Assembly: GCA_002498845.1 (NCBI GenBank)
Contig: DAJC01000051.1
Coordinates: forward strand, 1-64,000
Direction of reading: 5' to 3'
Source of the DNA: Thermoplasmatales archaeon UBA509
Lineage (GTDB): Archaea > Thermoplasmatota > Thermoplasmata > Thermoplasmatales > Thermoplasmataceae
DNA: 64,000 bases
Shown here piece by piece: positions 5,939 to 29,615 of this stretch; within the stretch, counting starts at the first letter, position 1; each line of letters begins with the position of its first letter. The translations under genes were made by a program, and so were the position numbers. The notes under the pieces were generated by a model. That model was not told the origin of the DNA and did no database searches. It saw only the letters and a list, made by a program, of their open reading frames with translations.

Positions 5939-6025
5939 TACTAGGGGAGCTTCTGCTGAAGCTGAGAGGACCTTGCGGTCGACCCTTGGAACCTGATCCA
6001 GGTAATGCTGGCGGAGGGATGTTGA
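5939..6025 (+). promoter_or_regulatory. TPP (THI-box) riboswitch aptamer
   Basis: The sequence carries the THI-box in order: GGGGAGC at about 5944, CTGAGAGGA at 5962, then ACCCTTGGAACCTGATCC and GGTAATGCTGGCGGAGGGA ending at about 6020. These are the conserved thiamine-pyrophosphate binding strands. A TATA-like stretch (ctttaaatatt, near 5910) lies about 25-30 bases upstream. Downstream, a hairpin with arms ATAGC/GCTAT (6062-6081) is followed by a T6 run at 6089-6094, which could be the expression platform. The leader ends at the MFS start at 6126, so the switch should control the whole thiamine operon. TPP riboswitches are established in Thermoplasma. Confidence 0.93.
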
Positions 6026-6125
6026 TGTGTATCTTATATTTGGGACTTGAAATCGCTTTATATAGCAGCTTTGCAAGCTATGGAAATGTTTTTTGTTCTT
6101 GGATGTTCTGTGAGGGGACTTTGCG

Positions 6126-9215: not shown

Positions 9216-9847
9216 AACTTCAGGGACTTTACCTTCTTACGCCGGACTATTACGGCGAGGGATTCTTCAAGAAACTTCAGCTAGCGCTTGATGCCGGCAT
9301 AGACTTGCTACAGTACAGAGACAAGAACAATCCCTACAGCGTGAAGCTTGAGGTTTCCCGGAGAATCAGGCGCATCACTCTTGATTATGACGTCCCCCTC
9401 ATAGTAGACGATGATCCGATACTGGCTGGCGAATGCTATGCAGATGGTGTCCATGTCGGCAAGGATGACCCTTCCATAGCCGAGGTCAGGGACATTCTGG
9501 GAGACGTTATAATAGGGTACTCCACCTATGGCGATGTGCATCGCGCCCTGCAGGGTCAGAAAGACGGCGCTTCATATGTTGCTTTCGGTTCATTCTTCCC
9601 GACAACGTCAAAGGATGGGGCAGAGCTGTGTGATATTAGGGTTCTTGAGGAGGCAAAGAAAATCCTGAATATCCCCATATTTGCCATTGGCGGCATAAAT
9701 GAGCATAACGTCGGGCGGATTATGCAGTACGGCATCAGCGGCGTTGCAGTCATCTCAAGCATTTTCTCGTCAGCTGATCCTTTCAGCGCGTGCAGGAAAC
9801 TTCGAAGCGAGATAGAGAAATTCATCGTTTCGGGATTCAAATGCTGA
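9212..9847 (+). CDS. thiE: thiamine-phosphate synthase
   Basis: 211 residues of the ThiE TIM barrel, joining HMP-PP and thiazole phosphate to thiamine phosphate. Seen: LLQYRDKN near residue 33 (family pattern QxRxK), VPLIVDDDPILAGECYADGVHVG near 66-88, the pyrophosphate-binding segment FGSFFPTTSK near 127, and IPIFAIGGINEHNVGRI near 152. Start overlaps the upstream stop (ATGA at 9212). It is the last gene of the riboswitch-controlled operon; no thiC or thi4 lies here, so the precursors come from elsewhere or from uptake. Confidence 0.93.
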   Translation: MKLQGLYLLTPDYYGEGFFKKLQLALDAGIDLLQYRDKNNPYSVKLEVSRRIRRITLDYDVPLIVDDDPILAGECYADGVHVGKDDPSIAEVRDILGDVIIGYSTYGDVHRALQGQKDGASYVAFGSFFPTTSKDGAELCDIRVLEEAKKILNIPIFAIGGINEHNVGRIMQYGISGVAVISSIFSSADPFSACRKLRSEIEKFIVSGFKC

Positions 9848-13564: not shown

Positions 13565-15343
13565 TCATTTCTGAATGACTGCCACACCGTAGGATTCCAT
13601 GATAATCCCATTGCCCTCGTTTTCACAGTTTCTGCTGAACAGAATCCTGCCATGCATATCGGGAATGTTTACTTGTTTCTCAGAAAGGTTGAAGGCACAC
13701 TGAATAACACCCATTGGCGTATCCAAATATGTTGCAGTGACAAGTGCACCATCGATTCTAACCACAGGCCTGATTCCTTTCCCAAGTTTCATACTTCTCC
13801 GAATGGAAATCAGTTTCCGGTATTCCCCAAATATTTTCTGCCCCTTACTGGAATGAAGATCATGCCATGGGATTCTGGATTCCATAAATGCACGTGGATC
13901 TGATGGCGCAATATGATCCTCAACCCAATCAAGATAGTTGAATTCCTCTTTCCGTCCCTTGTCCACGGCACTGGCAAATGACCTGTCCGATGTGTCAATA
14001 AAGAACCAGAATGGAGAAATTGTTCCAAATTCCTCACCCATGAAGAGCATGGGGACATATGGTGAAAGTATGGCACCAGCTGCCATTGCCATGGAAGCGT
14101 CCATGCCAGCATATGATGTAGGCCTCTTGGATCCCGGCCTGTTTCCCACCTGGTCATGGTCCTGTGCAAAGACAACCAGCTGGTCATTTCTGTATCTCCT
14201 GTCCCTGTAGCCTCTGGTCCTGTGAAGAAAACAAGAATAGATACAGGAATAAACGAAACCATGACGGAATGCCTCTGCTACCTGTTCAGGCTCACCATAA
14301 TCCATATAATATCCCTGCTTCTCGCCGGTGGCGAGTGCGTGCACGGAGTGATGAAAATCGTCACACCACTGTGCATCAAGACCATATCCTCCCATTTCCG
14401 GTCCCTGAATTACCCTGGGATTGTTCATGTCACTTTCCCCTATTATGACTGGTCTTTTCCCTGTGCCGGCAAAATGCTTCTTTATGGTCCTGGTAAGCTC
14501 AGCCAGGAAATGCATGGGGGAATTGTCCACTATGCCGTGAATTGCGTCTAACCTGAGACCATCGAAGCCATATACGTCCAGCCAGAAAATGGCATTCTGT
14601 ATGAAGAAGGAACGAACATAGTCAGACCACTCACCATCAAAGTTCAGTGATGCGCCCCATGGTGTCATGTACCGGTTTGAGAAGAATGGTCCGAATGCTG
14701 CAAAAATGTTTCCTCTGGGCCCAATGTGGTTGTATACAACATCCAGTATTACAGAAAGATTCATGGAATGGCATCTTTCCACCAGTTCTCTCAGGTCACC
14801 GGGAGTGCCGTATGTGTTATGGACAGCATAGGGAAATACCCCGTCATAACCCCAGTTCCAGCGGCCCTCAAACTGCGAAACCGGCATGAGTTCAATTGCG
14901 CTTACACCGAGATCAGTAAGATGCTCAAGCCTTTCACCGATGCCAGCAAACGTGCCCTGGGGAGTAAACGTTCCGGTGTGCAGCTCGTAGATAATTGCAG
15001 ACGGCATGTGCAGATTCACGAATTCGGTATTTCCTGGAAGTGGGTATTGAATCACCCTCGAATGGCCGAAAACTCCATTGGGCTGATACCTGGAAGCCGG
15101 ATCAGGGAGTGGTGCTCCGCCATTAATGGAGATCACGTAATCAACTGTTTCGCCATTCCATGGCATATGAGCCTCCCAGATACCAAACTCGTCCTTTGAT
15201 GCAATAATTCTTCGTTTCCCGGGAATGAATTCCAGTCCAGTGGCAAAGGGTGCCCATGTCCTGAAGATCACTTCCGATCCCCTTATGATTGGACCAATAT
15301 CCCGGTATGTTATGCTGGGAAAATTTTTCTTCCACTCACTCAA
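13565..15343 (-). CDS. treZ: malto-oligosyltrehalose trehalohydrolase
   Basis: 592 residues from the TTG at 15343, a GH13 enzyme that releases trehalose from the end of malto-oligosyl-trehalose. Seen: N-terminal beta-sandwich (FRTWAPFATGLEFIPG), ILDVVYNHIGPRGN, nucleophile motif GLRLDAIHGIVDNSPMHFL, acid/base in IIGESDMNNPRV, and FAQDHDQVGNRPGSKR, which is typical of TreZ. The TTG start overlaps the treY stop by 8 bases (TTGAGTGA); the frame opens further at 15388, but those residues are only treY antiframe. It is the last gene of the seven-gene operon. Confidence 0.92.
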   Translation of the reverse strand: MSEWKKNFPSITYRDIGPIIRGSEVIFRTWAPFATGLEFIPGKRRIIASKDEFGIWEAHMPWNGETVDYVISINGGAPLPDPASRYQPNGVFGHSRVIQYPLPGNTEFVNLHMPSAIIYELHTGTFTPQGTFAGIGERLEHLTDLGVSAIELMPVSQFEGRWNWGYDGVFPYAVHNTYGTPGDLRELVERCHSMNLSVILDVVYNHIGPRGNIFAAFGPFFSNRYMTPWGASLNFDGEWSDYVRSFFIQNAIFWLDVYGFDGLRLDAIHGIVDNSPMHFLAELTRTIKKHFAGTGKRPVIIGESDMNNPRVIQGPEMGGYGLDAQWCDDFHHSVHALATGEKQGYYMDYGEPEQVAEAFRHGFVYSCIYSCFLHRTRGYRDRRYRNDQLVVFAQDHDQVGNRPGSKRPTSYAGMDASMAMAAGAILSPYVPMLFMGEEFGTISPFWFFIDTSDRSFASAVDKGRKEEFNYLDWVEDHIAPSDPRAFMESRIPWHDLHSSKGQKIFGEYRKLISIRRSMKLGKGIRPVVRIDGALVTATYLDTPMGVIQCAFNLSEKQVNIPDMHGRILFSRNCENEGNGIIMESYGVAVIQK

Positions 15344-17891
15344 GTCCGCCCACCCTCCGCAGAATAACGGCCGGTATATTATCCACAAGGTGCCGTATTT
15401 TTAACTCCCCAGATAGGACTACAGTGCGACCCGACAGGAGATCAATATATTCTCCCTGGAATCCGGAGGGAAGAACTATGCGTGCATCTTCAAGCCTGTT
15501 TGGATCAAGTGCATTGGTTTCTGAGGTAATTTTTGAAAATAACCTGAGGCATACAACTATGATCAGTTCATTCTCACTGACCACATAATACGGAAGAATG
15601 GATTCACTGTGATCTCCCGACGCCTGTAGTGCTTCCATTTTCCCGTTGTCAATCACATGGGCAAGTTCCCTTCTGATCGTTGAAAGCACTGCAACCATCC
15701 TGGACTTCAGCCATGGGAAATCGCATTCTTCCAATGATTTCAGCGGCATTGAAGCTGTTTTTTCAAAATTTTTAACAAGTCTGTTAAAATTCACCTTTTC
15801 CCTGTTGTCAGGGTCCGTGAAATGAACGTTGATGCTCTCGGTTCCCTGGAAAAGTGCAGGCACACCAGGAAGCATGAATCTAAGAACAAGCATTGAAATT
15901 GAATTATAATGCCCCAGATCCCTGCATTTCCTTGCCATTTTCGTTCCCATCTCCCAGTTTCCAGATTCCATAAGGTCCATTATGATCCTGGCAAGTTCCA
16001 GGGCATTGTTCTCATATTCCACATCCGGGTTCTTCCATGATGTTGAAAGCATGGATTCCCTCATTGCCTTGATGATCTGTGCATCCAGCTCCTTCATGTA
16101 GTCTGTGTAATAATCTGCTGATCCATAGGAAGCCAGAACAAGCTGCAGGATGTAGTAAAGGTGCTCTTCTGCCATATTGCCTATTCTGGAACGCGTATCT
16201 TCACGGGACTGAAGATCTTCCAGGATTCTGAAGAAAAGGTCAGGGTATTCTGAAATGACGAGACCTGAATTTCTCAGGTCCTCTCCAAATTTTGTATCGT
16301 GGGTTGATCCCTCATTGAGAGAAAATGGCAGGTTCTCCCTCTTCCTTATGAATTCAATGAATCCTTCCCAGTCTGGAATATCTGCCTCCGGAGTCCAGCC
16401 CACCTCATTCATGAAAATTAACGGATTGTAGGAAAAGAAAAGCCTGTCCTCAAGATTTTTTGCCATGAGGGCCCCGGAGTACTGTTGAATTCTCAAAACG
16501 GGGCGTATGCACTGGTTACACTTATGGGAAACGTGATCTGAAAGTACCCGTGCAATGGACTCGTCACTGCCACCTTCAGAGTTCAACAGGTGTTGGGCGA
16601 TTTCAGTGGTATCATCGGCCGTGGAATATGTGCGGTATTTGTCAAATGATGTCAGGATGTTAACCACAGCTTCCCGTATTTCAGAATAACTGTATTCGTA
16701 CCCATGTTCCAGTACAAGGGAATTATAAAGTGGCCAGGAAAGGTTGTCAACATCACCTGAAAATTCCTGCATGATGAAGTCACGCTTGTAGCTCAGTAAA
16801 ACCTCAGAGATGTTGCCGTATTCAGGCAGACTGGAATGGAATCGATCCTGAAGCTTGCCATATCCTCCGTCATCTGCATACAGTGCATTGATCATCCCCA
16901 GAAAATCATAGCCTGTGGTGCCATGGATTTCGATTGATTTCGGAACTCTCTCTCCAGGAATGAGCACTTTCTCTGCCAGAATAATCTTGTCTGGCAGTTC
17001 ATTCCTCAGATATCTTACATAACCTGAAGGATCGTAGAGGCCATCCAGATGATCGATCCTGATGCCTGTCACACAAGATGATCTGGAAAGTTCAATGATC
17101 TTTCTGTGTGTGAACCTGATGACATTCATGTCCTGCGATCTGACGGCAATCAGGCCATTCACGGAAAAAAAACGCCTGTAATTTATACGCTTTGATGCAT
17201 ACAGCCAGAACACCGGCCTCAGTGGAATATCCCTGATGATTTCTTCCAGAGTTTGAATGCTGCTGATCTCAATATCCGGAAGTGGATTGCTAATCTCCTC
17301 TGACCGGCTTTCCATACCATTCTTCTGACTGGTGTTACCGGTTATTTCCGGCATTTTTCGAAGGGGGATATCCAGGGATCCAGCATGCAGGACAGGGATT
17401 GACCCGGGCGTTATGCTTACCCTGTGCTGATTCACCAGAGAAATGAGGTTCTGAGGGAGAAATGGAAAAACTACAGAATCACTTGGAGAGAATGGATTCC
17501 TGAATGTGTCGAAAAGCCATCTGAATTTTCGCGTTCCATCAATGAAAGCTGCTTGCACATAGGGATTTTCGGGGCTGTATGCCATATGGTTTGGGACTGT
17601 ATCCAGCAATATGCCGAGACCCAGAGATGAGCAGGTGGAGCAGAAATTTCTGAAGGCGCTTTCACCTCCAAGTTCAGGATTAACCTGGCCAAAATCGGTA
17701 ACATCATAGCAGTGGTTGCTGCCTGATACTGCCCTCATTATGGGTGAAAGATACACATGTGATACGCCAAGGGACCTCAGGTAGGGCAGGACCTTCTCAG
17801 CTTCATCCAATGAAAAATCCCTGTTGAGCTGAATCCTGTACACAAGCCGCATATTGCTTTCCGTCACTGGATCAGCCTTCCTGAAATGCAT
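15336..17891 (-). CDS. treY: malto-oligosyltrehalose synthase
   Basis: 851 residues, GH13; converts the reducing end of malto-oligosaccharides into an alpha,alpha-1,1-linked trehalosyl end. Seen: YRIQLNRDFSLDEAEKVLPYL (family start), LGVSHVYLSPIMRAVSGSNHCYDV, nucleophile motif GIRIDHLDGLYDPSGY near residue 285, acid/base ILAEKVLIPGE near 310, STHDTKFGEDLRNSG near 530. Length is longer than bacterial TreY (about 720) and similar to some archaeal ones. ATG 17852 (MRLVYRIQL) is a possible alternative start. It sits 30 bases after treX and overlaps treZ, its pathway partner. Confidence 0.92.
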   Translation of the reverse strand: MHFRKADPVTESNMRLVYRIQLNRDFSLDEAEKVLPYLRSLGVSHVYLSPIMRAVSGSNHCYDVTDFGQVNPELGGESAFRNFCSTCSSLGLGILLDTVPNHMAYSPENPYVQAAFIDGTRKFRWLFDTFRNPFSPSDSVVFPFLPQNLISLVNQHRVSITPGSIPVLHAGSLDIPLRKMPEITGNTSQKNGMESRSEEISNPLPDIEISSIQTLEEIIRDIPLRPVFWLYASKRINYRRFFSVNGLIAVRSQDMNVIRFTHRKIIELSRSSCVTGIRIDHLDGLYDPSGYVRYLRNELPDKIILAEKVLIPGERVPKSIEIHGTTGYDFLGMINALYADDGGYGKLQDRFHSSLPEYGNISEVLLSYKRDFIMQEFSGDVDNLSWPLYNSLVLEHGYEYSYSEIREAVVNILTSFDKYRTYSTADDTTEIAQHLLNSEGGSDESIARVLSDHVSHKCNQCIRPVLRIQQYSGALMAKNLEDRLFFSYNPLIFMNEVGWTPEADIPDWEGFIEFIRKRENLPFSLNEGSTHDTKFGEDLRNSGLVISEYPDLFFRILEDLQSREDTRSRIGNMAEEHLYYILQLVLASYGSADYYTDYMKELDAQIIKAMRESMLSTSWKNPDVEYENNALELARIIMDLMESGNWEMGTKMARKCRDLGHYNSISMLVLRFMLPGVPALFQGTESINVHFTDPDNREKVNFNRLVKNFEKTASMPLKSLEECDFPWLKSRMVAVLSTIRRELAHVIDNGKMEALQASGDHSESILPYYVVSENELIIVVCLRLFSKITSETNALDPNRLEDARIVLPSGFQGEYIDLLSGRTVVLSGELKIRHLVDNIPAVILRRVGGLE

Positions 17892-17921
17892 ATTTTACGG
17901 CAAATTCCAGCAGTTGCTGTA

Positions 17922-20045
17922 TCATAGAATCTCCTGTATGACAGCAGCTGCGTCAAAGTTCAGCAGATAATTTCTGCCCGGGAGTTTCTGGGGTAGCCCG
18001 TCTACAGATGGTACATTTGTATCGGCATATATCTCCCATCCTTTTTCACTTTCTGGAAGAATGAAGTTGACCGGGCTACTTGATGAGTTGAAGATCAGCA
18101 GAAGATCCCCACCAGTGACAATATCGTCCCTGTAGGATATTTCTCTTGTCTCGCGTCCTGAAAGCCTTATCATAAGGGCGTGAAGCGATGGATCGTTCCA
18201 GATGGCGGCCGTCATGTCCCTACCCTCAGGGGTCATCCACTGTATTTCTGCCCTACCAGTTGCTGGATTTGGGGTGCTCCGAAAGAAATTTCTCCTCCTC
18301 AGCACAGGATTTGACCTCCTCAGGTGAATCATATGGCGCGTGAATTTAAGAAGGGAAGTCCTTTCCATGTCTAGATTCCAGTTATACCAGCTGATCTCGT
18401 TGTCCTGACAGTATGCATTGTTGTTTCCCCTCTGTGTCCTGCCAATCTCATCACCACCCAGCAGCATTGGTACCCCCTGTGAAACAAGCATTGTAAAGAT
18501 GAAATTTTTCATTCTGCGGAACCTCCTTCCCAGGATCTCCTGGCTGTCAGTTTCCCCTTCCACCCCGAAGTTATAGCTGTAATTCTCGTCCGTTCCACCC
18601 TGGAAAAGCTCTCCGTTTGCCTCATTGTGTTTACTGTTGTATGAAACAAGGTCATACAGCGTAAATCCGTCGTGGGACGTTACAAAGTTTATGCTCGAGT
18701 GCGGTCTCCTTCCATCCTCCTCATACAGATCGGGCGAACCTGATATTCTTGTTGCAAACTCTGCGAGAGTTCCGTCATCGCCCCTCCACATCCTCCTGAT
18801 CAGATCCCTGTACTTACCATTCCATTCCGCCCACTTAGGAGGGAAATTTCCAACCTGATATCCACCTGGTCCCACGTCCCAGGGCTCGGCTATGAGTTTC
18901 ATTGTTGAAATTACCGGATCCTGGTGTATCGTGGCCAGAAATGGTGATAGCATATTCACGTTGTAAAGCTCACGAGCCAGAGTTGATGCCAGATCAAATC
19001 TGAAGCCGTCCACCTGCATATCTGTAGCCCAGTACCTCAGGCTGTCCATTATGAGCTGAAGAACCTGTGGATTCCTTGCATTCAGGCTGTTTCCTGTTCC
19101 CGTGAAATCAGAGTAAAACCGGGGACTATCAGGATCAAGAATGTAATATGTGGTATTGTCTAGTCCCCTGAAGCTCAAAGTGGGGCCAAGATGATTCCCC
19201 TCTGCTGTATGATTGTAAACCACGTCCAGGATGACCTCAATCCCGTTCTCATGAAATTTCCTGACCATGTCCTTGAATTCCCGTACCTGAGTCCCGGGGG
19301 GACCGGAAGAGTAGCGTATATCCGGAGCGAAAAATCCAATGGTGTTATATCCCCAGTAATTCACAAGTCCAGAATCAACCAGCATCTTCTCATCCACATG
19401 ATGGTGCACAGGAAGGAGCTCCACCGAAGTTATGCCAAGATCCTTCAGGTATCGGATCATGGGTTCGGATGCAAGTCCGGAGTAAGTCCCTCTGATCTTT
19501 TCATCAACCTGAGGATTTGTGATTGTGGCTCCCCTTACATGGGTTTCACATATGATAGTCCTGTTCCAGGGATGCCTGGGCTTTTCAACTCCTCCCCAGT
19601 CGTAGCTGGAGTCAACAACGATTGATTTTGGCACATACTTCTCATCAGGTGCTGCATCGATCTTGAGGTCTTTTTCCTGGGAATTTATGTCGTATGAAAA
19701 AATGCTGTCATTCCATTTTACAACACCACTCAGGGCCTTTGCATACGGATCAATTAGAAGCTTACTCTTATTGAACCTCTGCCCATTCTCCGGATCATAT
19801 GGTCCATCCGCTCGATAGGCGTACAGCTGCCCGGGTTTGATGCCAGACACAAAACAGTGCCACACATGTGCATCCTGCTCCTGTAACCTTATGGTTTCCA
19901 CAGCTTCGCCGTCTTCCCTGTCATAGAGTTCCAGAAAGACAGCACTGGCATTTTCTGAATAAATGGCGAAATTCACTCCCCCATCAACTGTGGTGGCACC
20001 AAGGGGGTATTCGCTCCCCCTCCTTACTCTTTCAACATTTTCCAC
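17922..20045 (-). CDS. treX: glycogen debranching enzyme, isoamylase type
   Basis: 707 residues, GH13_11. A CBM48 sandwich (GATTVDGGVNFAIYSENASAV) precedes the barrel. Catalytic motifs: VILDVVYNHTAEGN, GFRFDLASTLAREL (nucleophile), LIAEPWDVGPGGYQVGNFP (acid/base), INFVTSHDGFTLYDLVSYN. The enzyme cuts alpha-1,6 branches and so supplies linear chains to TreY/TreZ. The start is GTG at 20045, 30 bases after the maltokinase gene. Its place directly before treY-treZ gives the standard TreX-TreY-TreZ order; glgX would be an equally valid name on sequence alone. Confidence 0.92.
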   Translation of the reverse strand: MENVERVRRGSEYPLGATTVDGGVNFAIYSENASAVFLELYDREDGEAVETIRLQEQDAHVWHCFVSGIKPGQLYAYRADGPYDPENGQRFNKSKLLIDPYAKALSGVVKWNDSIFSYDINSQEKDLKIDAAPDEKYVPKSIVVDSSYDWGGVEKPRHPWNRTIICETHVRGATITNPQVDEKIRGTYSGLASEPMIRYLKDLGITSVELLPVHHHVDEKMLVDSGLVNYWGYNTIGFFAPDIRYSSGPPGTQVREFKDMVRKFHENGIEVILDVVYNHTAEGNHLGPTLSFRGLDNTTYYILDPDSPRFYSDFTGTGNSLNARNPQVLQLIMDSLRYWATDMQVDGFRFDLASTLARELYNVNMLSPFLATIHQDPVISTMKLIAEPWDVGPGGYQVGNFPPKWAEWNGKYRDLIRRMWRGDDGTLAEFATRISGSPDLYEEDGRRPHSSINFVTSHDGFTLYDLVSYNSKHNEANGELFQGGTDENYSYNFGVEGETDSQEILGRRFRRMKNFIFTMLVSQGVPMLLGGDEIGRTQRGNNNAYCQDNEISWYNWNLDMERTSLLKFTRHMIHLRRSNPVLRRRNFFRSTPNPATGRAEIQWMTPEGRDMTAAIWNDPSLHALMIRLSGRETREISYRDDIVTGGDLLLIFNSSSSPVNFILPESEKGWEIYADTNVPSVDGLPQKLPGRNYLLNFDAAAVIQEIL

Positions 20046-20075
20046 AATATATCTACCTCATCTGCTGCACGGCAA

Positions 20076-21515
20076 TCACATGAAGCTGCCGCTTCCACTC
20101 AGCGTCTCAACAAGGGCCCGGGCCGGTATGATTATCCAGTCTGGCCGGTTGTTCATCTCATAGTTTGCCTCGTATACTGCTTTCTCAACCTCATAATAGG
20201 CTGCAGTTTTCATGAAGTCCCGGAAGTCCCTTGGAATGGTGGGGAGATCACTGGATTTCTGGAAATACGCCTTAAGGAAAACATCACGCAGTTTCAGGGA
20301 AATTTTTCTAGTTTCACTGGCCAGTAAAGTATCAGATTTTGAGTAAAAACTTAAAGCGTAGTCTATTGAGCGTGTCATGCCAGCAACATCCTTCAGGACA
20401 CATCCGAGGGATGATCGCTCCGTTTCGCCCCTGAGTGGTTCACCTTCGAAGTCTATAATTATGGGTCCACGTGTTGTCCTGAGTATCTGCCCCAGGTGAA
20501 GATCACCGTGAAACCTGATCTTCTCCACCTCATACAGGGGAGAGAAGTCGAAGTTGTCGACAAAATTTCTGATAAGATCGTAAAAATCAATGCTGTCGTA
20601 TATTCTTCCATTGATTGAAAGAGAAATGGATGTCCTGCGCATTGCAGATGCAAGATCCATGTATCTCCGTTTAATCCGGGTTATGTCACCTGATGTGAAG
20701 AGTTCATGGCCGAAGCCCGGATCATCTATGCTGAAAAGTGCCCTGTGCATTTCTGCAACCGTTACTGCAAGCTCTGTGGCAGCTGAGGTCATTTCCTCAA
20801 TTATATCTTCAACCACAGCCTTTCTGCCATGGGTGAATCTGCCAATCAGATCCTTACTCAGTTCAAGAAAATAGCGCCAGTAATCGCCATCATTCTGGAC
20901 ATTTTCCTGTATGGAAACCACGGAAAGCAGAGGTTCCGGTTCATGGATCAGCTGTGCAATTGGTCTGGGTATATTTCTAAAGTTCGTTTTTGTATAGAGC
21001 TTGACCGGAACCGTAAAGTCAGGATTATGGGGTGATATGGGCCGGCGAAACACCTTGCATATGTATCTTTCTCCCACGGTAAATGAGGAATTTGACTGCT
21101 CCACGTTAAGTGGCGTTATGACGGGATGCGCTGTCATATATGACTGGAATTCTTCTGCATATGGACCCTGAATCACAATTCGACCGTTTGAGCCAGAAAC
21201 AGCGCCATCCGTAGCTAGGAGTGACATGAATGAGGATATGCTTCCGTTCTCCACTGCATCCCCAAACTGGGATGAATCGAAGGCAGATGGAGTTATGACA
21301 ATGGTCGATCCGCCTGATGTTATGCTAATGTCAACAATTACGATGGCAGATTCGCTGTCCCCTATAGTTTCCGGAACTGCATCCACAAGGCGGGCATCCA
21401 CAATGGAATCAGACTTGAACGGAAACCACCTCTTGGTCTTCAGCTGTGCAAGCAGCCCAATGAGCGTAGATCTGTCAAGGACAGATGAAAGATGAACAGT
21501 ATTATGCAGTGACAT
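20076..21515 (-). CDS. mak: maltokinase
   Basis: 479 residues; ATP-dependent phosphorylation of maltose to maltose-1-phosphate, the substrate of GlgE. Seen: ERYICKVFRRPISPHNPD near residue 185 (ATP-side lysine), the aminoglycoside-kinase-like catalytic loop FHGDLHLGQIL near 365, and IIDFEGEPLRGE near 382, all typical of Mak/Pep2. ATG at 21515 is preceded by GGAGG and overlaps the end of treS by 14 bases. In many bacteria TreS and Mak are fused or form a complex; here they are separate but translationally coupled, which supports the same partnership. Confidence 0.9.
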   Translation of the reverse strand: MSLHNTVHLSSVLDRSTLIGLLAQLKTKRWFPFKSDSIVDARLVDAVPETIGDSESAIVIVDISITSGGSTIVITPSAFDSSQFGDAVENGSISSFMSLLATDGAVSGSNGRIVIQGPYAEEFQSYMTAHPVITPLNVEQSNSSFTVGERYICKVFRRPISPHNPDFTVPVKLYTKTNFRNIPRPIAQLIHEPEPLLSVVSIQENVQNDGDYWRYFLELSKDLIGRFTHGRKAVVEDIIEEMTSAATELAVTVAEMHRALFSIDDPGFGHELFTSGDITRIKRRYMDLASAMRRTSISLSINGRIYDSIDFYDLIRNFVDNFDFSPLYEVEKIRFHGDLHLGQILRTTRGPIIIDFEGEPLRGETERSSLGCVLKDVAGMTRSIDYALSFYSKSDTLLASETRKISLKLRDVFLKAYFQKSSDLPTIPRDFRDFMKTAAYYEVEKAVYEANYEMNNRPDWIIIPARALVETLSGSGSFM

Positions 21516-23157
21516 TTGGTGCCTCCATGATAAGCCAGAAATAGGAATGCCTGGGCATTGTGAAGAAGTATGGCAGCTCACCTATATCCGGGAACCTCAC
21601 AGAACTTATTGTCTCCCGGAGATGCCATCCGTTGAATTCTGAAAGGTCAAGTCTGGTGAACCCTGGCTTCCTTCCAAGGTTGTATACGCATAGCATTTGT
21701 TGTCCCTGGTATTCCCTTATGAATGCCAGTATCTGCTTGTCCTCGGACTTGAGAAACCTTATTGATCCACGCCCCAGCACCTGCGAATTCTGCTTCCTCA
21801 CAATGATCATGCGCCTGAACCAGTTCAGGAAGGATGTTGGGAGCCGTGACATGGAATCCACGTTGAAGCTTTCATAATGATAATTAGGATTTGTTATTAC
21901 CGGCGAGTAAAGTGCCTCGGAATCTGCCCTTGAAAAACCGGCATTCCGGTCATAAGACCACTGCATTGGTGTTCTCACGCCGTTCCTGTCCCCTAGATAT
22001 ACATTATCTCCCATGTTGATCTCATCACCATAATAGAATATTGGAGACCCAGGGAGGCTCATGATGAGAGCATGCAGAAGCTCAAGCACGTATCTGTCGT
22101 TGTCCACAAGCGGCGCTAGTCTTCTCCTTATTCCAAGGTTAAGCCTCATCTTTGGGAGTTTTGCATATTCCTTGAACATGAGGTCTCTTTCTTCATCCGT
22201 GACCATTTCTAGAGTGAGTTCATCATGATTTCTGAGGAAAAGCCCCCAATCACATTTCTCCGGTATGGGCAGGGTTTGCTTTATTATATTTACAATAGGG
22301 AAGGCATCCTCCTGTGCAAGTGCAATGAATATTCTTGGCATGAGCGGGAAGTTGAAATTCATATGGAATTCATCCTGGTTCCCGAAGTATGCCTTTGCAT
22401 CAACAGGCCACTGGTTTGCCTCGGCCAGGAGAATGCAGCCCGGATAATCCCTGTCAATCATCTTCCTGATCTCCTTGAAGTATTCATGCGTTTCAGGAAG
22501 ATTTTCACAGCTTGTCCCCTCCCTCTCGAAGAGATAGGGCACTGCGTCGCACCTGAATCCGTCAAGCCCTTTGTCAAGCCAGTATCTTATTACGTTCATC
22601 ATCTCCTGGCGGACTTCCGGGTTATCATAGTTGAGGTCAGGCTGGTGGCTGTAGAACCTGTGCCAGTAATACTGCTTGGAAACAGGATCCCAGGCCCAGT
22701 TTGATGTCTCAGTGTCTACGAATATGATCCGGACACCTTTGTATTTCTCCGGATCATCAGACCAGACAAACCAGTCCCTTTTAGGATTGTCCCTGCTTGA
22801 CCTGGCTTCCCTGAACCACTGGTTCTGGTCCGATACATGGTTAAGGACCAGATCCGCAATAACCCTGATACCCCGGGCATGAGCCTCCGAGACAAAGCGC
22901 TCGAAATCCTCAACAGTTCCATAGTCAGGTAGTATGGAATAGTAGTCGCTGATATCGTATCCATCATCCTTCAGGGGAGATTTGTAGAATGGAAGGAGCC
23001 ATATGCAATCAATCCCGATGCTCTTGATATAGTCAAGCCTCATTGTGAGCCCGTTGAAGTCCCCAATGCCGTCATCGTTGGAATCAAAGAAACTTCTCAC
23101 GGGCACCTCATAGAATGAGGCGTCCCTGAACCAGAGTTCGTCGTCACTGCTCAGCAT
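21502..23157 (-). CDS. treS: trehalose synthase (maltose alpha-D-glucosyltransferase)
   Basis: 551 residues, GH13_16; interconverts trehalose and maltose. Seen: LWFRDASFYEVPVRSFFDSN at the N-terminus, LNHVSDQNQWF near 105, nucleophile D204 in FRCDAVPYLF, acid/base E246 in LLAEANQW, RNHDELTLEM near 309 and RTPMQWSYDRNAGFSRAD near 395, which together are diagnostic for TreS rather than alpha-glucosidase. There is no C-terminal maltokinase fusion; the kinase is the next gene. The gene begins one base after the glgE stop. Confidence 0.93.
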   Translation of the reverse strand: MLSSDDELWFRDASFYEVPVRSFFDSNDDGIGDFNGLTMRLDYIKSIGIDCIWLLPFYKSPLKDDGYDISDYYSILPDYGTVEDFERFVSEAHARGIRVIADLVLNHVSDQNQWFREARSSRDNPKRDWFVWSDDPEKYKGVRIIFVDTETSNWAWDPVSKQYYWHRFYSHQPDLNYDNPEVRQEMMNVIRYWLDKGLDGFRCDAVPYLFEREGTSCENLPETHEYFKEIRKMIDRDYPGCILLAEANQWPVDAKAYFGNQDEFHMNFNFPLMPRIFIALAQEDAFPIVNIIKQTLPIPEKCDWGLFLRNHDELTLEMVTDEERDLMFKEYAKLPKMRLNLGIRRRLAPLVDNDRYVLELLHALIMSLPGSPIFYYGDEINMGDNVYLGDRNGVRTPMQWSYDRNAGFSRADSEALYSPVITNPNYHYESFNVDSMSRLPTSFLNWFRRMIIVRKQNSQVLGRGSIRFLKSEDKQILAFIREYQGQQMLCVYNLGRKPGFTRLDLSEFNGWHLRETISSVRFPDIGELPYFFTMPRHSYFWLIMEAPNVTA

Positions 23158-23158
23158 T

Positions 23159-25081
23159 CTACTCCCTCACAAGTATGTGGGCAGGCCTGTATTCAGGCAC
23201 CAGTCTTACGTAGTTATACTCATTATGCCAGCAGTATTTCTCTCCTGTCATCATGTCCATTACATCGTATCCTGCACAGTCTGAGGATCTCACCCAGTCC
23301 GGGGGTACCTGCACAGTTGCTTCACACGTTTCATACGGATTTATGTTCACCACAACCATAACAGATGGATATCCGGGATAGTAGCGGTAATATGCAAGTA
23401 TGCTCGGATTGCTCGAGTTCAGGAATTTCACATTTCCATGAAGGTGGAAATTCACGACATTCTTTCTTATCTTGTTAAGAAGTGAAATAATGTCCCTGAT
23501 GTTGCCGTCGGCAAGCCAGTCCCGCTGCTTTATTTCATATTTCTCCGCATCCATGTATTCCTCCCTGCCGGGTATGCCCTCATTCTCACAGAGCTCGTAT
23601 CCGCTGTATATGCCCCAGAGCGGAGAGAGCGTTGCCGCCAGCACTGCACGCATCATGAATGCGGGCCGTCCGCCTCTTTGCAGAACGAATGGCAGGATGT
23701 CAGGTGTGTTTGTGAACAGCATTGGCCAGAAAAATGAGGAAATCTCCGGCCTGTTGATTTCATTGAAATATTCCCTGATCTCCCAGTCAAAATTTCTCCA
23801 GGTGAAGTAGGTGTAGGACTGCTGGAATCCTATCCTGGAAAGTTTGTACATAACGGACGGCTTGGTGAATGCCTCCGCCAGGAATACTGCATCCGGGTGC
23901 TTCTCCCTGATACTGGATATGATCCATTTCCAGAACGGAAGCGGTTTCGTATGCGGGTTATCAACCCTGAAGATTCTTATGCCCTGTGAAATCCAGAATT
24001 CAAAGATACCCAGCATCTCCTTCCACAGGTTTTCCCTGTCCTCCGTGTCAAAGTTCAGCGGGTATATGTCGAAGTACTTCTTGGGAGGATTCTCTGCGTA
24101 CCTGATACTCCCGTCCGGGCGATGGTAGAACCACTCCGGATGATCCTTAACATATGGATGATCTGGAGAACACTGCAGGGCGATGTCCATGGCAATCTTC
24201 AGTCCATGTTTTCCGGCTGCCGATACCATTTCCCTGAAATCCGACATGGTTCCCAGTTCAGGATTGATGGACTTATGACCTCCCAGGGCACTGCCTATTG
24301 CCCAGGGACTGCCCGGATCATCCTTTCCGGCAGGAATTATGCCGTTCTTCCCGCGCCTGCTTGTCTGGCCGATTGGATGCACCGGTGTCAGGTAGATCAC
24401 GTCGAATCCCATGGCTGCAATATCCGGCATCCTCCTTATGACATCCCTGAAGGTGCCATGTTTCCCCGGTACATCTGATTGCGATCTCGGGAACAGTTCA
24501 TACCATGAAGAGAAGTATGCGGCCTCGGGAAATGCCTCAAGTTTCATTATGCCTGATCTTGCACTGTTGCTTCTTGGCCAGTACTTTTCAAGAAGGTGAT
24601 AGTTATCTCTTATGATCGAGATGGCACCTTCAGCCGATGATCCTGCAGATGAGATGATCTTCTCAAGAGCCTTCCGGTCCCTTCCCCTGGCCCTGGCCAT
24701 TCCAGCCCTGATGCTTTCCATGCCAGCAGCAATATCTGCATCAACATCCTCGCCTGCATTCTTCCATGCTGTCGTATCACGGAGCCAGGTGCGCAGGTCA
24801 TCATACCAGGCTGTGATCCTGAACCTGTAAGTTCCAGTCTTTGCAATGGGGAACCAGCCCGTGAAGGTATCTTCCGCGGCAGGAGTAAGGTTCTCACTCT
24901 TCCACGTCCTTGATCCGGGCGCAAGATAATCCACCTGAGCACCAATGATCCTTGTGCCATGTGAATATGCCCTGCAGGAGACCTGCTGCATGAGCCCTGC
25001 ACATCCCTTGGCGGGGGTGAGACTATCCTCAACTGCCGGCCTGATATCCTCAATAATTATTTCCTGTTCATCTGTTTTCAT
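23159..25081 (-). CDS. glgE: alpha-1,4-glucan:maltose-1-phosphate maltosyltransferase
   Basis: 640 residues, GH13_3. It transfers maltosyl units from maltose-1-phosphate to growing alpha-1,4-glucan. An N-terminal sandwich domain with a helical insert (to about residue 170) precedes the barrel. Diagnostic motifs: nucleophile D374 in FRVDNPHTKPLPFW, acid/base E403 in LAEAFTKPSVMY, and YTYFTWRN near 424; the 29-residue spacing between the two catalytic residues is the same as in characterised bacterial GlgE. The start overlaps the glgB end by 14 bases. GlgE was described mainly from actinobacteria, so its presence in an archaeal operon is notable. Confidence 0.93.
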   Translation of the reverse strand: MKTDEQEIIIEDIRPAVEDSLTPAKGCAGLMQQVSCRAYSHGTRIIGAQVDYLAPGSRTWKSENLTPAAEDTFTGWFPIAKTGTYRFRITAWYDDLRTWLRDTTAWKNAGEDVDADIAAGMESIRAGMARARGRDRKALEKIISSAGSSAEGAISIIRDNYHLLEKYWPRSNSARSGIMKLEAFPEAAYFSSWYELFPRSQSDVPGKHGTFRDVIRRMPDIAAMGFDVIYLTPVHPIGQTSRRGKNGIIPAGKDDPGSPWAIGSALGGHKSINPELGTMSDFREMVSAAGKHGLKIAMDIALQCSPDHPYVKDHPEWFYHRPDGSIRYAENPPKKYFDIYPLNFDTEDRENLWKEMLGIFEFWISQGIRIFRVDNPHTKPLPFWKWIISSIREKHPDAVFLAEAFTKPSVMYKLSRIGFQQSYTYFTWRNFDWEIREYFNEINRPEISSFFWPMLFTNTPDILPFVLQRGGRPAFMMRAVLAATLSPLWGIYSGYELCENEGIPGREEYMDAEKYEIKQRDWLADGNIRDIISLLNKIRKNVVNFHLHGNVKFLNSSNPSILAYYRYYPGYPSVMVVVNINPYETCEATVQVPPDWVRSSDCAGYDVMDMMTGEKYCWHNEYNYVRLVPEYRPAHILVRE

Positions 25082-27260
25082 TCAAATCACCTGCTCCATT
25101 CTGAAGTATCACGCATCCCAGTGGAGGCAGTGTCATTTCAACTGAATTCTCCTGCCCATGCAGCGGTATGCCCTGAGATTCTATCTTCCCGAGATTGCCT
25201 GCACCGGATCCGCCGTAAAGGGTGGAATCCGAGTTGAAGATCTCCCTGTAGGTTCCGCTTCCGGGAACGCCAATCCTGTACCCATGCCTGGTGACAGGCG
25301 TGAAATTGAAAACGAATATGGTGTTGCTGGATCCCCTGCAGGATTGCCTCATAAATGAAATGACCGTATTCTCGCTGTCCTTGAAATCGATCCACCTGAA
25401 GCATTCCTGCCTGAAATCTGATGTTCCGAGTGCGTTTCTGCCATATATTGCATTCAGGTCATGCAGTAGCAGCATGATGCCCGACTGAACAGCATCATCT
25501 GCTTCAATGGGAAGGAAAGATGCGTAATCCCACTCACCTTCCATGGCAGTCTCATTTCCCATGAACAGCAGCTTTTTACCCGGGAATGAGAACATGTAGG
25601 ACAGGAGCAGTCTTATGTTGGCATGCTTCTGCCATGAATCTCCCGGCATCTTGCTGTACAGGGAACCCTTGCCATGGACAACCTCGTCGTGGGATATGGG
25701 CAGTACAAACCTCTCAGAGAAAGCGTACCACAGGGAGAATGTGAGATTGTCCATGCGGTATTTCCTGTACAGTGGATCGGTGGAGAAGAAATCCAGTGTG
25801 TCGTGCATCCAGCCCATGTTCCACTTCATGTCAAATCCAAGCCCACCAGATGACGCCTGGCCCGTAACATTGGGCCACGAAGTGGATTCCTCGGCAATCA
25901 TGAGCGCACCTGGAAACCTGGCATGAACCGTTTCATTCACCTTCCGGAGGAATCCTATTGCCTCCAGGTTCTGGTTTCCGCCATAGGCATTGGGTATCCA
26001 TTCCCCCGACTTTCTTGAATAGTCAAGGTAGAGCATTGATGATACAGCGTCGATCCTTATCCCGTCCGCATGAAACATGTCCAGCCAGTAGACCGCATTG
26101 GATACGAGGAAGCTTATCACTCCTCCGCTGCCATAATTGAATATGTATGTACCCCAGTCCGGGTGGCGGCCCCTTCGCGGATCGGGATCCTCAAAGAGGT
26201 GGGTACCGTCAAATTCGGCAAGCCCGTAGGCATCCTCGGGAAAGTGGGCCGGCACCCAGTCAAGGATCACACCAATCCCCCTGGAATGCATGTAGTTGAT
26301 GAAGAAGCGGAAATCATCAGGATCTCCATACCGTGAGGTGGGAGCATAATAGTTTATGACCTGGTACCCCCAAGAACCGTCAAATGGGTGTTCCATCACT
26401 GGCAGCAGTTCAACATGGGTGAAGCCCATTTTTGCCATATGGTCAGCTATGAGTGGTGCAAGTTCACGGTAATTGAGGTAGCCCCCATCACTGTCCCGTG
26501 CCCAGGATCCAAGGTGCACCTCATATATTGACAGTGGACTTTCAGATGCAGAAACATTTGCACGCCTCTCCATCCATGAACGGTCCTTCCACCTGAAGGC
26601 GGGACTGTGGACAATTGATGCTGTGTGGGGACGCAGCTCTGACATGGATGCAAATGGATCGGTTTTCTCGAGCACGGTACCCTGCTGTGTCCTTATTGCA
26701 AATTTGTAGACCTCCCCATCCATGCATTCCGGGATGAATATCTCCCAGATACCAGAATCCCTGACATTGATCATGGGGTGCTCGCCACTGTTCCAGTGGT
26801 TGAAATTCCCAATTACTGAAACGGCTCTGGCATTTGGTGCCCATACAACAAACCTTGTCCCGCTTGCTTCAGGATATTTCATTGGATGGGATCCGAAAAC
26901 GCGATAGGCCATGTAGTCATCACCCTTCTTGAAGAGGTACGCTTCAAGCTCAGTAAGCAGGGGTGGAAATGCATATGGATCATGTGAACATGAAACATAT
27001 CCACTGCTGTCCCTCCAACATATCATGTAAAGCCTGCCGGCGGCGGTCGGGATCGTCCCACCGTAAAGATCCTTCTCGATTTTCCTTGCCTCTATCCTGT
27101 TCCCGGCATATTCCATCCAGGCTTCAGTTGATCTGGGAAGGAAGAACCTTACCTCGGTGCCATCCCCTGAAGGATGTGGCCCGAGAATTCTTTCCGGGTG
27201 GCTGCTGCTGAAACTAAGAATATTCTCAGCCTCTTTCCCGAAGTTTCTTTCCGTCTCCAT
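25068..27260 (-). CDS. glgB: 1,4-alpha-glucan branching enzyme (GH13)
   Basis: 730 residues, GH13_9; introduces alpha-1,6 branches. Two N-terminal sandwich regions are visible, the second a CBM48 (TRFVVWAPNARAVSVIGNFN near 140). Barrel motifs: VILDWVPAHFPEDAYGL, nucleophile GIRIDAVSSMLYLDYSRK, acid/base MIAEESTSWPNVTG, LPISHDEVVHGKGSLYSKM. It is the first gene of the operon. In the GlgE pathway GlgB branches the linear polymer made by GlgE. Most archaea that have a branching enzyme use the unrelated GH57 type, so this GH13 form supports acquisition together with glgE. Confidence 0.93.
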   Translation of the reverse strand: METERNFGKEAENILSFSSSHPERILGPHPSGDGTEVRFFLPRSTEAWMEYAGNRIEARKIEKDLYGGTIPTAAGRLYMICWRDSSGYVSCSHDPYAFPPLLTELEAYLFKKGDDYMAYRVFGSHPMKYPEASGTRFVVWAPNARAVSVIGNFNHWNSGEHPMINVRDSGIWEIFIPECMDGEVYKFAIRTQQGTVLEKTDPFASMSELRPHTASIVHSPAFRWKDRSWMERRANVSASESPLSIYEVHLGSWARDSDGGYLNYRELAPLIADHMAKMGFTHVELLPVMEHPFDGSWGYQVINYYAPTSRYGDPDDFRFFINYMHSRGIGVILDWVPAHFPEDAYGLAEFDGTHLFEDPDPRRGRHPDWGTYIFNYGSGGVISFLVSNAVYWLDMFHADGIRIDAVSSMLYLDYSRKSGEWIPNAYGGNQNLEAIGFLRKVNETVHARFPGALMIAEESTSWPNVTGQASSGGLGFDMKWNMGWMHDTLDFFSTDPLYRKYRMDNLTFSLWYAFSERFVLPISHDEVVHGKGSLYSKMPGDSWQKHANIRLLLSYMFSFPGKKLLFMGNETAMEGEWDYASFLPIEADDAVQSGIMLLLHDLNAIYGRNALGTSDFRQECFRWIDFKDSENTVISFMRQSCRGSSNTIFVFNFTPVTRHGYRIGVPGSGTYREIFNSDSTLYGGSGAGNLGKIESQGIPLHGQENSVEMTLPPLGCVILQNGAGDLNENR

Positions 27261-27261
27261 T

Positions 27262-27292
27262 CATATTTAATAAGGGTTTATCATATTTATAA
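27262..27292 (-). promoter_or_regulatory. promoter of the glucan/trehalose operon
   Basis: On the minus strand TTATAAA (complement of 27286-27292) stands about 29 bases before the glgB ATG at 27260, with a further AT-rich stretch (attaaatatga) against the start codon. The spacing fits a leaderless or almost leaderless transcript. No other good promoter was seen between the seven tightly packed genes. Confidence 0.5.
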
Positions 27293-27351: not shown

Positions 27352-28350
27352 TCATCCCTTCCTTGCAGCCTCGCTGAAGTTCCTTATCCTGTCCATTCTT
27401 TTCTCCGTGATCCGGCTGATTCTGCGTTCATACCTCATCATCTGCTTCTGCGACATGGGCCTGAGTGGGCGCATGAGGGTTGATTCCTTCTTAATGGCTG
27501 AAATAAAAGAATCAGAGCTTGGAATGTGCCGCAACACTTCCCTGTCAACGGTACCCTGAAGGCGGGAGGTCAGGAACAGTATGAAGAAAGGGATTGCAGC
27601 AATCATGATCACGGATGCTGCAGTTACTGAAAGAATAAGCAGGTCATAGGAAGCGGGAACAATGGTCAGTAAAATTGAAGCTGCCAGGAGGATATCGACA
27701 GCCACGGCAACATACAGTGCACCAAGAATAATGATCTTTCTGGCAGTACCATACTTCCTCGAATAATACGCATCAAGCATTGCTGCGTCGATTTCATCTG
27801 CATCAAGCTGCTGGATCGCCTCCTGATTCAACATCACGTGCCAGCTTTTGCCCTTGGATGTTTCGGCATATGAACGGAATATCCTCTTGCGAGAGATATA
27901 GACATCATGGTCTCCTGCATCGCCAACCAGGCCTTGAAGCCTGTCGGTGTATTCCTGGCTGTAATCATCGGGATTCAGGATGGCGGGCTTACCCATCCTG
28001 TAAAGCAAAAACGCGGGAACAGCAAAGATCACAGTGTCAACCGGAACAAAGGAAATGAGCCTGCCCACAGCGTTATGGGCGGAAAGAATATACACAACGG
28101 GTCCCAGGAACGCATAGACCAGTACCGAGACAATTGTGAAGATCCTCAATTTAAATTGCCTGATCCTCTGTGTACTGCCAAATCTCAGGAACACATAGGC
28201 GATAATAACAGAGAGGGGCATGACAAGTATCAGCCCTTCCAGCTCAGAAATCCTGCCGGACTGTATAAGCACTGGAATCAGGAATACTGCCAGGTAAACA
28301 AGGGAGAACGATAAAAATGAAACAAGAAAGCGCCGTGTTGCCGTTTTCAT
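27352..28350 (-). CDS. membrane protein resembling M48 (Ste24/HtpX) peptidase, zinc motif lost
   Basis: 332 residues with about six membrane segments in two blocks (residues 10-120 and 200-265) around a soluble part. The soluble part DADEIDAAMLDAYYSR lines up with the M48 segment whose usual form is LxxDELxAVLAHELGHI: the acidic lead-in is kept but the HExxH zinc motif is replaced by LDAYY. No second HExxH occurs. I therefore read it as a catalytically dead M48-type membrane protein; the assignment is by eye. Start ATG 28350 rather than 28365, since the longer form runs into the IS end. A tatta element lies directly in front. Confidence 0.5.
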   Translation of the reverse strand: MKTATRRFLVSFLSFSLVYLAVFLIPVLIQSGRISELEGLILVMPLSVIIAYVFLRFGSTQRIRQFKLRIFTIVSVLVYAFLGPVVYILSAHNAVGRLISFVPVDTVIFAVPAFLLYRMGKPAILNPDDYSQEYTDRLQGLVGDAGDHDVYISRKRIFRSYAETSKGKSWHVMLNQEAIQQLDADEIDAAMLDAYYSRKYGTARKIIILGALYVAVAVDILLAASILLTIVPASYDLLILSVTAASVIMIAAIPFFILFLTSRLQGTVDREVLRHIPSSDSFISAIKKESTLMRPLRPMSQKQMMRYERRISRITEKRMDRIRNFSEAARKG

Positions 28351-28355
28351 GTTAT

Positions 28356-29615
28356 AATATGTCAACTACTCCACCCTGACGGTTGGGGCTTGCTGCTGTC
28401 CTCTGCCATGCCCGTAGGCACGGTTTCACTGAAACGCAACGATTGGCTGGTTGACAGCAGCCTGAAGTACTCAGATTTACCGAGTACCTCAATGTTCCTT
28501 GATGCATTAAGATCAGCATGAATTTCAAGGTTGCACCGTTTGCAGTGGAATACTGATCCATGCCTGTTATTCCTGTCCCTGTATCCACACCTTGAGCATG
28601 TCTGCGATGTGAATCTTGGGTCTATATATACAACTGTTTTATTCAAATCCTCTGCCTTGTATTCCATGAACCGCTGCAACTGAAATGGAGACCATGATCC
28701 AAGTTTGTTGTTGAATCTCCTTCCATTACCATTTCTCATGCTCGATGCATTCAGGTCTTCAAGTGCAAACACATCATGGGGAAGATTGACTATCTGTTTT
28801 GATATTGTATGATTGGTGTCAAGCACGAACCGTCTCTCTCGCCCACTCAAATTCTTTAGTTTTCTATGAGCAGAACGAGTGCCTGAGTGCTGCAATCTCT
28901 TCTTGTTGTAGCGGTATCTTCCCTTAACTTCCCTCAGATGCTTTGAATTGAAGAATGTGTTATCTGACAGCACTGCTATGTTCCTTATGCCTCTGTCTAT
29001 ACCTATTACCTTTACATCCTCGTTCACAACTTTATTTTCAACTTTATTATCTACCTCCACCTGAACCATCATAAACATTCTTTTCCTGTGTTCATCAATG
29101 ACAACCTGTGCATTGGTGTATTGTCCCCTGTATTTGTCTATTAAGGGGGAATTTGCTACGGGGAATGATAATCTCCCTTTTACTGTTGCCAATGATAGGA
29201 TGCGTGTGTCAGGGTAGAACTTGAAGGTTCTTCTGTCATATCTGATTGTGATTGACTTTCTATGTATGGGCGTTTTAAATTTTGTCTGCTTCAATGATTC
29301 AGATGCTGTATCTCTTGCCGTCTGTACCAAAGCGGATGGAAGGGTTGGTATCTTTCCCCTTACCTCACTGTATGTTCCCCTGTTCAACCTGTTCCTGTTG
29401 AATGTTTTTTCAGAAAACCCGTAGTCCAGAACTATTTGACATGCTTCCCTGAACTGCCTTCCCGTTTCCAGAAGGGAAGGATCGTATGGAAGTTTCAGTT
29501 TAATAGTCCTGAACATTGTTCAGTAAATTGCCTGATTGTTTATTAGTGTTTCGTTGAGGGAAGTCCGTGTATCTCCAGGCTATGGCATTGGAGTTTTACT
29601 GCTTCCCTCAAACTC
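28356..29615 (-). mobile_element. IS200/IS605-type element carrying only tnpB
   Basis: One tnpB gene (28362-29516, minus) with no tnpA beside it. In front of the gene there is a subterminal hairpin: a perfect 10-bp inverted repeat TTGAGGGAAG (29554-29563) and CTTCCCTCAA (29602-29611), with a second inner pair CTCCA/TGGAG. The other end, past tnpB, reads AAGCCCCAACCGTCAGGG followed by TGGAGTAGTTGAC (minus strand), the style of IS605 right ends, where the tnpB stop lies within the last bases. Exact ends are not certain. Without TnpA it would need a transposase in trans. Confidence 0.75.
28362..29516 (-). CDS. tnpB: TnpB, RNA-guided nuclease of IS605-type elements
   Basis: 384 residues. N-terminal helix-turn-helix/WED-type part (FRTIKLKLPYDPSLLETGRQ), then the split RuvC domain: VIGIDRGIRNIAV near 185 with the first Asp, FALEDLNASSMRNG near 260 with the Glu, a zinc finger CSRCGYRDRNNRHG...CKRC near 312-335, and EIHADLNASRNIEVLG with the last Asp. 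All three catalytic acids and four zinc cysteines are present, so the protein looks intact. TnpB proteins cut DNA guided by a right-end (omega) RNA that overlaps the gene's 3' end; that RNA would read into the flank at about 28355, just before the M48-like gene. Confidence 0.92.
   Translation of the reverse strand: MFRTIKLKLPYDPSLLETGRQFREACQIVLDYGFSEKTFNRNRLNRGTYSEVRGKIPTLPSALVQTARDTASESLKQTKFKTPIHRKSITIRYDRRTFKFYPDTRILSLATVKGRLSFPVANSPLIDKYRGQYTNAQVVIDEHRKRMFMMVQVEVDNKVENKVVNEDVKVIGIDRGIRNIAVLSDNTFFNSKHLREVKGRYRYNKKRLQHSGTRSAHRKLKNLSGRERRFVLDTNHTISKQIVNLPHDVFALEDLNASSMRNGNGRRFNNKLGSWSPFQLQRFMEYKAEDLNKTVVYIDPRFTSQTCSRCGYRDRNNRHGSVFHCKRCNLEIHADLNASRNIEVLGKSEYFRLLSTSQSLRFSETVPTGMAEDSSKPQPSGWSS

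Follow-up and report, generated by a model that had tools for sequence, protein, structure and literature searches.

A seven-gene archaeal block joining the GlgE pathway to TreX, TreY and TreZ as a probable trehalose-to-glucan-and-back module in Thermoplasmatota

What use would an archaeon have for one tight block of genes that encodes both glucan synthesis from trehalose and trehalose formation from glucan? The question is raised by a 64,000-nucleotide stretch of contig DAJC01000051.1 (the window, meaning the whole of the DNA analyzed), which stems from a Thermoplasmatota archaeon related to Thermoplasma. Positions 13565–27260 of its minus strand hold seven uninterrupted open reading frames (ORFs), transcribed leftwards in the order glgB-glgE-treS-mak-treX-treY-treZ and spaced, with the longest starts taken, by −14, 1, −80, 30, 30 and −53 bases, the −80 and −53 overlaps probably reflecting start choices too far upstream. 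We consider the block to be probably a trehalose-to-glucan-and-back module: trehalose made by OtsA and OtsB would be laid down by GlgE as glucan and recovered through TreX, TreY and TreZ, a reading supported by family and structure matches, catalytic residues, the conserved glgB-glgE-treS-mak order and the linkage of glgE to treY.

Five of the seven products (GlgB, TreS, TreX/GlgX, TreY and TreZ) score above the curated NCBIfam cut-offs (Table 1). For GlgE, assigned to the GH13 subfamily 3 maltosyltransferases, no NCBIfam model reaches its cut-off; both GlgE-specific Pfam domains (the N/S domain and the C-terminal domain) do, and residues 8–637 align nearly end to end with the solved GlgE 4u2y (E 3e-168), which we take to be the Streptomyces coelicolor enzyme. 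All twelve active-site positions compared are kept in the window protein, with the nucleophile D374, the acid/base E403, D461 and the phosphate-site residues N331, Y336 and N375 in place; eleven of the twelve are invariant across 32 aligned archaeal rows while one is Tyr in 29 and Phe in 3. The published residues were transferred to the window protein through what we take to be the S. coelicolor numbering, and K334, the twelfth position, is presumably an active-site residue too. The other eleven come from the list in PMC4663749. GlgB carries CBM48, GH13 and GlgB_N domains and matches the solved GlgB 3k1d (E 8e-213), and TreS matches the solved trehalose synthase 5x7u (E 4e-243). TreX scores almost equally against the solved GlgX 7u39 (813 bits) and against 2vnc (810 bits), presumably Sulfolobus TreX, so the names treX and glgX cannot be told apart. 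Among solved structures TreY matches 1iv8 best (E 4e-84) and TreZ 1eh9 (E 7e-134), both of which we likewise take to be Sulfolobus enzymes; treZ probably starts downstream of its first TTG. Catalytic residues, placed where we take the GH13 triads to lie, are intact throughout: D404/E457/D525 in GlgB, D204/E246/D312 in TreS, D351/E387/D459 in TreX, D280/E307/D532 in TreY and D281/E318/D412 in TreZ. Mak is the weakest assignment of the seven, with an uncertain start codon (an ATG at 21515 is possible) and no Pfam match; among solved structures it comes closest to maltokinases, with E values from 3e-25 to 8e-21 (4o7o E 3e-25, 5jy7 E 6e-24), a glucosamine kinase following at a weaker E of 6e-10, and the kinase motifs HGDLHLGQ and DFEGEP are intact. 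The initial annotation had named these seven genes and their tight packing, a full set of GlgE catalytic and diagnostic residues, a GH13-type GlgB, and an operon free of glycogen synthase and of ADP-glucose enzymes; this stands, the identities being confirmed by ORFs and by family and structure matches, with Mak as a probable maltokinase.

Table 1. Genes of the block and the putative promoter element (all on the minus strand), with their family matches
Feature	Position	Strand	Match or remark
glgB	25068..27260	-	NCBIfam NF003811 917 bits, cut-off 741; GH13-type
glgE	23159..25081	-	PF11896 98 bits (cut-off 25), PF21702 62 bits (cut-off 27)
treS, stand-alone trehalose synthase / maltose glucosylmutase, 551 residues	21502..23157	-	TIGR02456 914 bits, cut-off 678
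mak, maltokinase, up to 501 residues	20076..21581	-	TIGR02457 177 bits, below cut-off 375
treX (glgX), debranching enzyme, 707 residues	17922..20045	-	TIGR02100 965 bits, cut-off 641
treY, maltooligosyltrehalose synthase, 851 residues	15336..17891	-	TIGR02401 566 bits, cut-off 499
treZ, maltooligosyltrehalose trehalohydrolase, up to 607 residues	13565..15388	-	TIGR02402 588 bits, cut-off 539
TATA-like box before glgB	27285..27292	-	center ~28 bases, end 24 bases, upstream of glgB ATG

Would these genes be read as one? The TATA-like box before glgB reads TTATAAAT in the window and GTATAAAT at the equivalent place in G001, the nearest genome to the window, and in G003; a box about 28 bases before the start codon is the rule for leaderless archaeal transcripts. 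A simple pattern scan of the same strand from 13.4 to 27.4 kilobases (kb), for which the chance level was not computed, gave four TATA-like matches, two before glgB and two within treY, and none at the internal junctions of the block. On such pattern evidence, packing and promoter position would fit one leaderless seven-gene transcript.

We then asked how far this arrangement extends. PF11896 was matched in 14 of 41 relatives and in 38 of 389 genomes sampled from the phylum, 25 of the latter being counted as full GlgE. The remaining 13 matched weakly and over part of the domain only, with E values between 8e-9 and 3e-4, in frames 634–1902 residues long. Gene order was surveyed in the loci of 32 GlgE genomes (14 plus 18). 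Twenty-two, of which a few have broken frames or genes truncated at a contig end (G012, for example), have glgB-glgE-treS-mak on one strand in this order; a contig end falls within the set in two (G025, G260), glgB is divergent from glgE-treS-mak in five (G375, G215, G282, G360, G184), and the remaining three are those with a bacterial-type GlgE (G371, G124, G136). treY lies in the glgE locus in 15 of the 32, a linkage that spans three families: it is collinear with glgE in two, both of the window's genus (G001, and G003 across two contigs), and on the opposite strand in 13 (in pieces in G012). Six genomes have treY elsewhere or on another contig (G006, G024, G016, G139, G260, G263), and in 11 no TreY above cut-off was found. 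A further genus member, G002, was not among the 32, only the last 71 residues of its GlgE being available; it shows the same collinear order over two contigs. Apart from the window, three genus genomes therefore have this order, on a single contig in G001 and on two contigs each in G002 and G003. G004 (95% complete) has neither GlgE nor TreY above cut-off, and G005 has treY-treZ at contig ends. Among the archaeal loci examined the collinear seven-gene unit was thus seen in the window's genus only; the glgE-treY neighborhood is wider than the genus and probably old. Packing and promoter position speak for the single transcription unit of the initial annotation, and the interpretation given to it is weakened by this restriction of collinearity to one genus, with treY opposite in 13 genomes.

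In 46 sampled bacterial GlgE loci, many of them shortened by contig ends, a TreY match stands near glgE in two, both times on the glgE strand. The Geomonas azotofigens locus reads treZ-treY-glgE-treS-mak and that of Sunxiuqinia indica treZ-glgE-treS-mak-glgB-treY. Archaea are thus not alone in having this combination, which weakens the initial interpretation. As separate observations on treY-treZ, the sister-family genome G375 has a gene for a protein with GH57 and DUF3536 domains placed between its treZ and its treY (L139:14279-16720), and G005 has two contigs (L158 and L159), each with a treY-treZ/transporter/oxidoreductase stretch, whose TreY proteins are 68% and 56% identical to that of the window; the two contigs may represent a strain mixture or a duplication.

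The genealogy of GlgE was followed in a tree of 68 of the 79 rows (11 dropped for length), the bacterial rows of which came from peptide-pattern hits with no Actinobacteria among them. Twenty-nine of the 32 archaeal rows, the window included, form one clade with 100/100 support, and are as such no fresh bacterial gift; the other three (G371, G136, G124) are placed outside this clade, between bacterial rows, and are likely separate transfers. A recent bacterial donor for the window GlgE was rejected, the protein standing inside the 29-row clade; a tree had been suggested at the outset for finding the donor lineage, and no close bacterial donor appeared in the sample. The best named database match of GlgE is a Candidatus Thermoplasmatota archaeon metagenome-assembled genome, at 87% identity. 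A quick TreY tree had 45 rows: 16 from Thermoplasmatota loci, 28 chosen from 120 listed hits, and the window, with TreY of G009, G012, G348, G139, G260 and G263 left out. It groups the TreY of the genus with that of G016 and with metagenome proteins, a placement that agrees with the GlgE tree. It pointed to no particular donor, and a foreign origin of the genus TreY was rejected for want of evidence.

Where would the trehalose come from, and what else acts on the glucan? Statements on genome content refer to G001, which has 52% of sampled 31-letter words in common with the window and is not the window's own genome, and to other relatives; the gene-content survey covered 16 family genomes, 14 with GlgE and two without. 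OtsA is present in all 16, OtsB in 15 and GH15 in all 16, so that the otsA search proposed initially did find a trehalose source; its extension to 21 more genomes gave 13 matches (all 12 of the window's family, plus G124), and OtsA stands at 28 of 28 family genomes searched. TreT, likewise proposed, was above cut-off in none of the 16 and was rejected as the family's trehalose source, all four weak PF21269 matches falling inside OtsA frames. GlgP was found in none of the 16 and gave no match in G001. The glgA/glgC search had a mixed outcome: GlgC was above cut-off in 0 of 16, G001 included, with weak nucleotidyltransferase matches in 15, and PF08323 (GT5) exceeded its Pfam cut-off in six of 16, at 32–47 bits, the one typed further, that of G001, being a GT4-type protein (TIGR02095 59 bits against 328). 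The GlgA and GlgC of the classical pathway were accordingly not found in G001. This genome has an OtsA-OtsB pair, with OtsB above its NCBIfam cut-off, a trehalase-like GH15 protein with a TREH_N domain, and a second alpha-glucan locus with GH57, GT4, a GH133-type debranching enzyme and GH15 (L153:5612-11948; 998–1014 kb of G001), the best NCBIfam match of the GT4 being TIGR02149. These finds remove most of the strangeness of the missing enzymes: going by its genes, the G001 cell would make trehalose in an ordinary way, would probably be able to break it down, and may have a further glucan synthase. OtsA was matched in none of eight GlgE genomes of two sister families (G348, G371, G136, G375, G215, G282, G360, G184), six of which have TreY above cut-off, and these genomes pose the question of the source of their trehalose.

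The module that we propose would run as follows. Trehalose produced by OtsA and OtsB, encoded elsewhere in the genome, would be converted by TreS into maltose, which Mak is predicted to phosphorylate with adenosine triphosphate (ATP) to maltose 1-phosphate; GlgE, with this as its predicted donor, would add maltosyl units to an alpha-1,4-glucan, and GlgB would branch it. For the return, TreX would debranch the glucan, TreY would turn its chain ends into trehalosyl units and TreZ would release trehalose, at a cost of one ATP per disaccharide stored. With no GlgP found in G001, TreXYZ together with the GH15, GH57 and GH133-type hydrolases are the likely means of glucan mobilization, and TreX would need a transferase activity of its own, as Sulfolobus TreX has (PMC8158581), or help from other hydrolases. 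If both arms ran simultaneously, each disaccharide passed round would cost an ATP to no purpose, and control must therefore be at the level of enzyme or substrate. Of the glucan-trehalose cycle or storage switch first suggested, the storage-and-return logic is supported, and the enzymes around it turn out to be ordinary (OtsA and OtsB among them).

The block also carries a mosaic pattern. Compared in 500-base pieces, window and G001 are 98.6–100% identical from 0.4 to ~18.3 kb, 72–92% identical between ~18.3 and 40.5 kb, with a 99–100% island at ~21.0–22.3 kb inside that stretch and no alignment at all over the TnpB part of it, and 94.6–100% identical from 40.5 kb on, short stretches excepted. 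The identity edges are sharp and fall within treX, mak and treS, with reading frames intact. In the glgE-glgB part the window, G001 and G003 are about equally distant from one another, and at 30–40 kb it is the window that stands further off, G001 and G003 being the closer pair. The sharp breakpoints across the operon look like homologous recombination between strains, chimeric assembly being the alternative. Upstream of glgB, on the same strand and after a gap of 91 bases, a gene at 27352–28365 encodes a protein of 337 residues that looks on inspection like a membrane protein and matches neither Pfam nor NCBIfam; it is 57–58% identical to its genus counterparts, as against 83% for the flanking glgB and 94–95% for the gene on its other side. 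Directly upstream of it lies a TnpB-family gene (28362–29516, minus strand), and no DNA matching this stretch was found in the compared stretches of G001, G002 and G003. Elsewhere in the window, a thiamine pyrophosphate riboswitch at 5933–6036 (73 bits against a gathering score of 54) closely precedes genes for an MFS transporter and for thiamine-type functions (6126–9847).

Several points weigh against the module. That the window's own genome matches G001 in gene content is inferred, the activities of the enzymes of this clade are predicted from sequence, and Mak stays below its family cut-off (Table 1). In G001, OtsA stays below two NCBIfam cut-offs (469 bits where 634 are required, and 423 where 565 are) and the trehalase-like GH15 protein below that of archaeal trehalase (406 against 820 bits), both being above their Pfam cut-offs. 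Since 11 of the 32 GlgE genomes have no TreY above cut-off, the system can evidently do without the return to trehalose, and since the second G001 locus with its GT4 may also make glucan, GlgE need not be the main synthase. One rival reading is a line in place of a cycle: as proposed for Pseudomonas, the GT4 or another synthase would make linear glucan, TreY and TreZ would turn it into trehalose, and TreS, Mak, GlgE and GlgB would build a mature branched polymer from that. Such a flux has been demonstrated in Pseudomonas (PMC8084333), the G001 GT4 adjoins GH57, GH133-type and GH15 genes, and Picrophilus torridus has a separate GT4/GH133/GH57 cluster resembling this locus (PMC11046441). The GT4, however, scores 143 bits where its family demands 302, and it lies in a separate locus; OtsA, moreover, offers a direct source of trehalose in all 28 family genomes searched. 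We regard one-way production as quite unlikely.

The collinear order may, on the other hand, have no functional meaning, being a local rearrangement in which a treYZ pair that lies on the opposite strand in relatives landed on the glgE strand in one genus. Collinearity in that genus only, the 13 other linked genomes with treY opposite glgE and the recombination-like breakpoints running through the operon would all suit this explanation, which is a possible one; but the order is kept in G001, G002 and G003 besides the window, and glgE-treY linkage recurs in three families and in two of the 46 bacterial loci. A buffer against osmotic or acid stress has also been considered, with the glucan as an osmotically inert trehalose reserve, co-transcription keeping both enzyme sets ready, and salt or growth state setting the flux. 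Trehalose protects Pseudomonas aeruginosa against osmotic stress and GlgE glucan protects it against desiccation (PMC8084333), and the linkage of treY to glgE in 15 of 32 genomes would agree with such a role; TreY above cut-off is missing from 11 GlgE genomes, and we think the buffer somewhat unlikely. Returning to the module, a bolder version would make the alpha-glucan primarily a trehalose rather than a glucose reservoir, filled by GlgE and emptied by TreXYZ from one promoter, a reversible compatible-solute buffer at one ATP per trehalose. The lack of GlgP and of a clear GlgA is in keeping with it, and in the sister families without an OtsA match the loop would have to be primed by another trehalose or glucan source; we offer this as speculation, and an unlikely one at that.

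How does the block compare with known systems? The actinobacterial GlgE pathway (Streptomyces, Mycobacterium) has the same four enzymes and the same active-site residues as the window; archaeal GlgE forms a deep clade of its own against the bacteria sampled, in a tree without an actinobacterial row. Sulfolobus has its familiar TreXYZ gene order, and to our knowledge no GlgE set is known there. As a glucan-to-trehalose route, TreXYZ of Sulfolobus acidocaldarius (PMC8158581) corresponds to that of the window; this organism also has a characterized GlgA (PMC11046441). For the initial annotation GlgE was an enzyme established in actinobacteria; in archaea the pathway has already been published for the Thermoplasmatales Picrophilus torridus, Acidiplasma cupricumulans and Cuniculiplasma divulgatum (PMC11046441, PMC6355812), members of the taxonomic order inferred here, with putative GlgE and TreS, with Mak named for the first two, and reportedly without glycogen synthase. 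treXYZ downstream on the glgE strand, as in the window, is not described for these three in the accessible portions of either paper. Among the papers listed by the searches, none describes a collinear archaeal seven-gene unit in its title, abstract or accessible passages, although figure 7 of PMC11046441 might show one. GlgE and TreYZ sets have also been published together for Leptospirillum ferriphilum (PMC4769503) and Defluviicoccus (PMC9041414). In P. aeruginosa the GlgE set likewise lies near the TreYZ set, and mutants and nuclear magnetic resonance showed the two arms working in opposite directions, one set of corresponding enzymes converting glucan to trehalose and the other trehalose to glucan (PMC8084333); this system differs from the window in having two predicted operons, glgA, malQ and an orphan glgP, no otsAB, and a TreS fused to Pep2. 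With the present survey the archaeal GlgE pathway, known from earlier reports, reaches further Thermoplasmatota, and the glgE-treY neighborhood, present in three families despite rearrangement, is a testable sign of exchange between trehalose and glucan pools.

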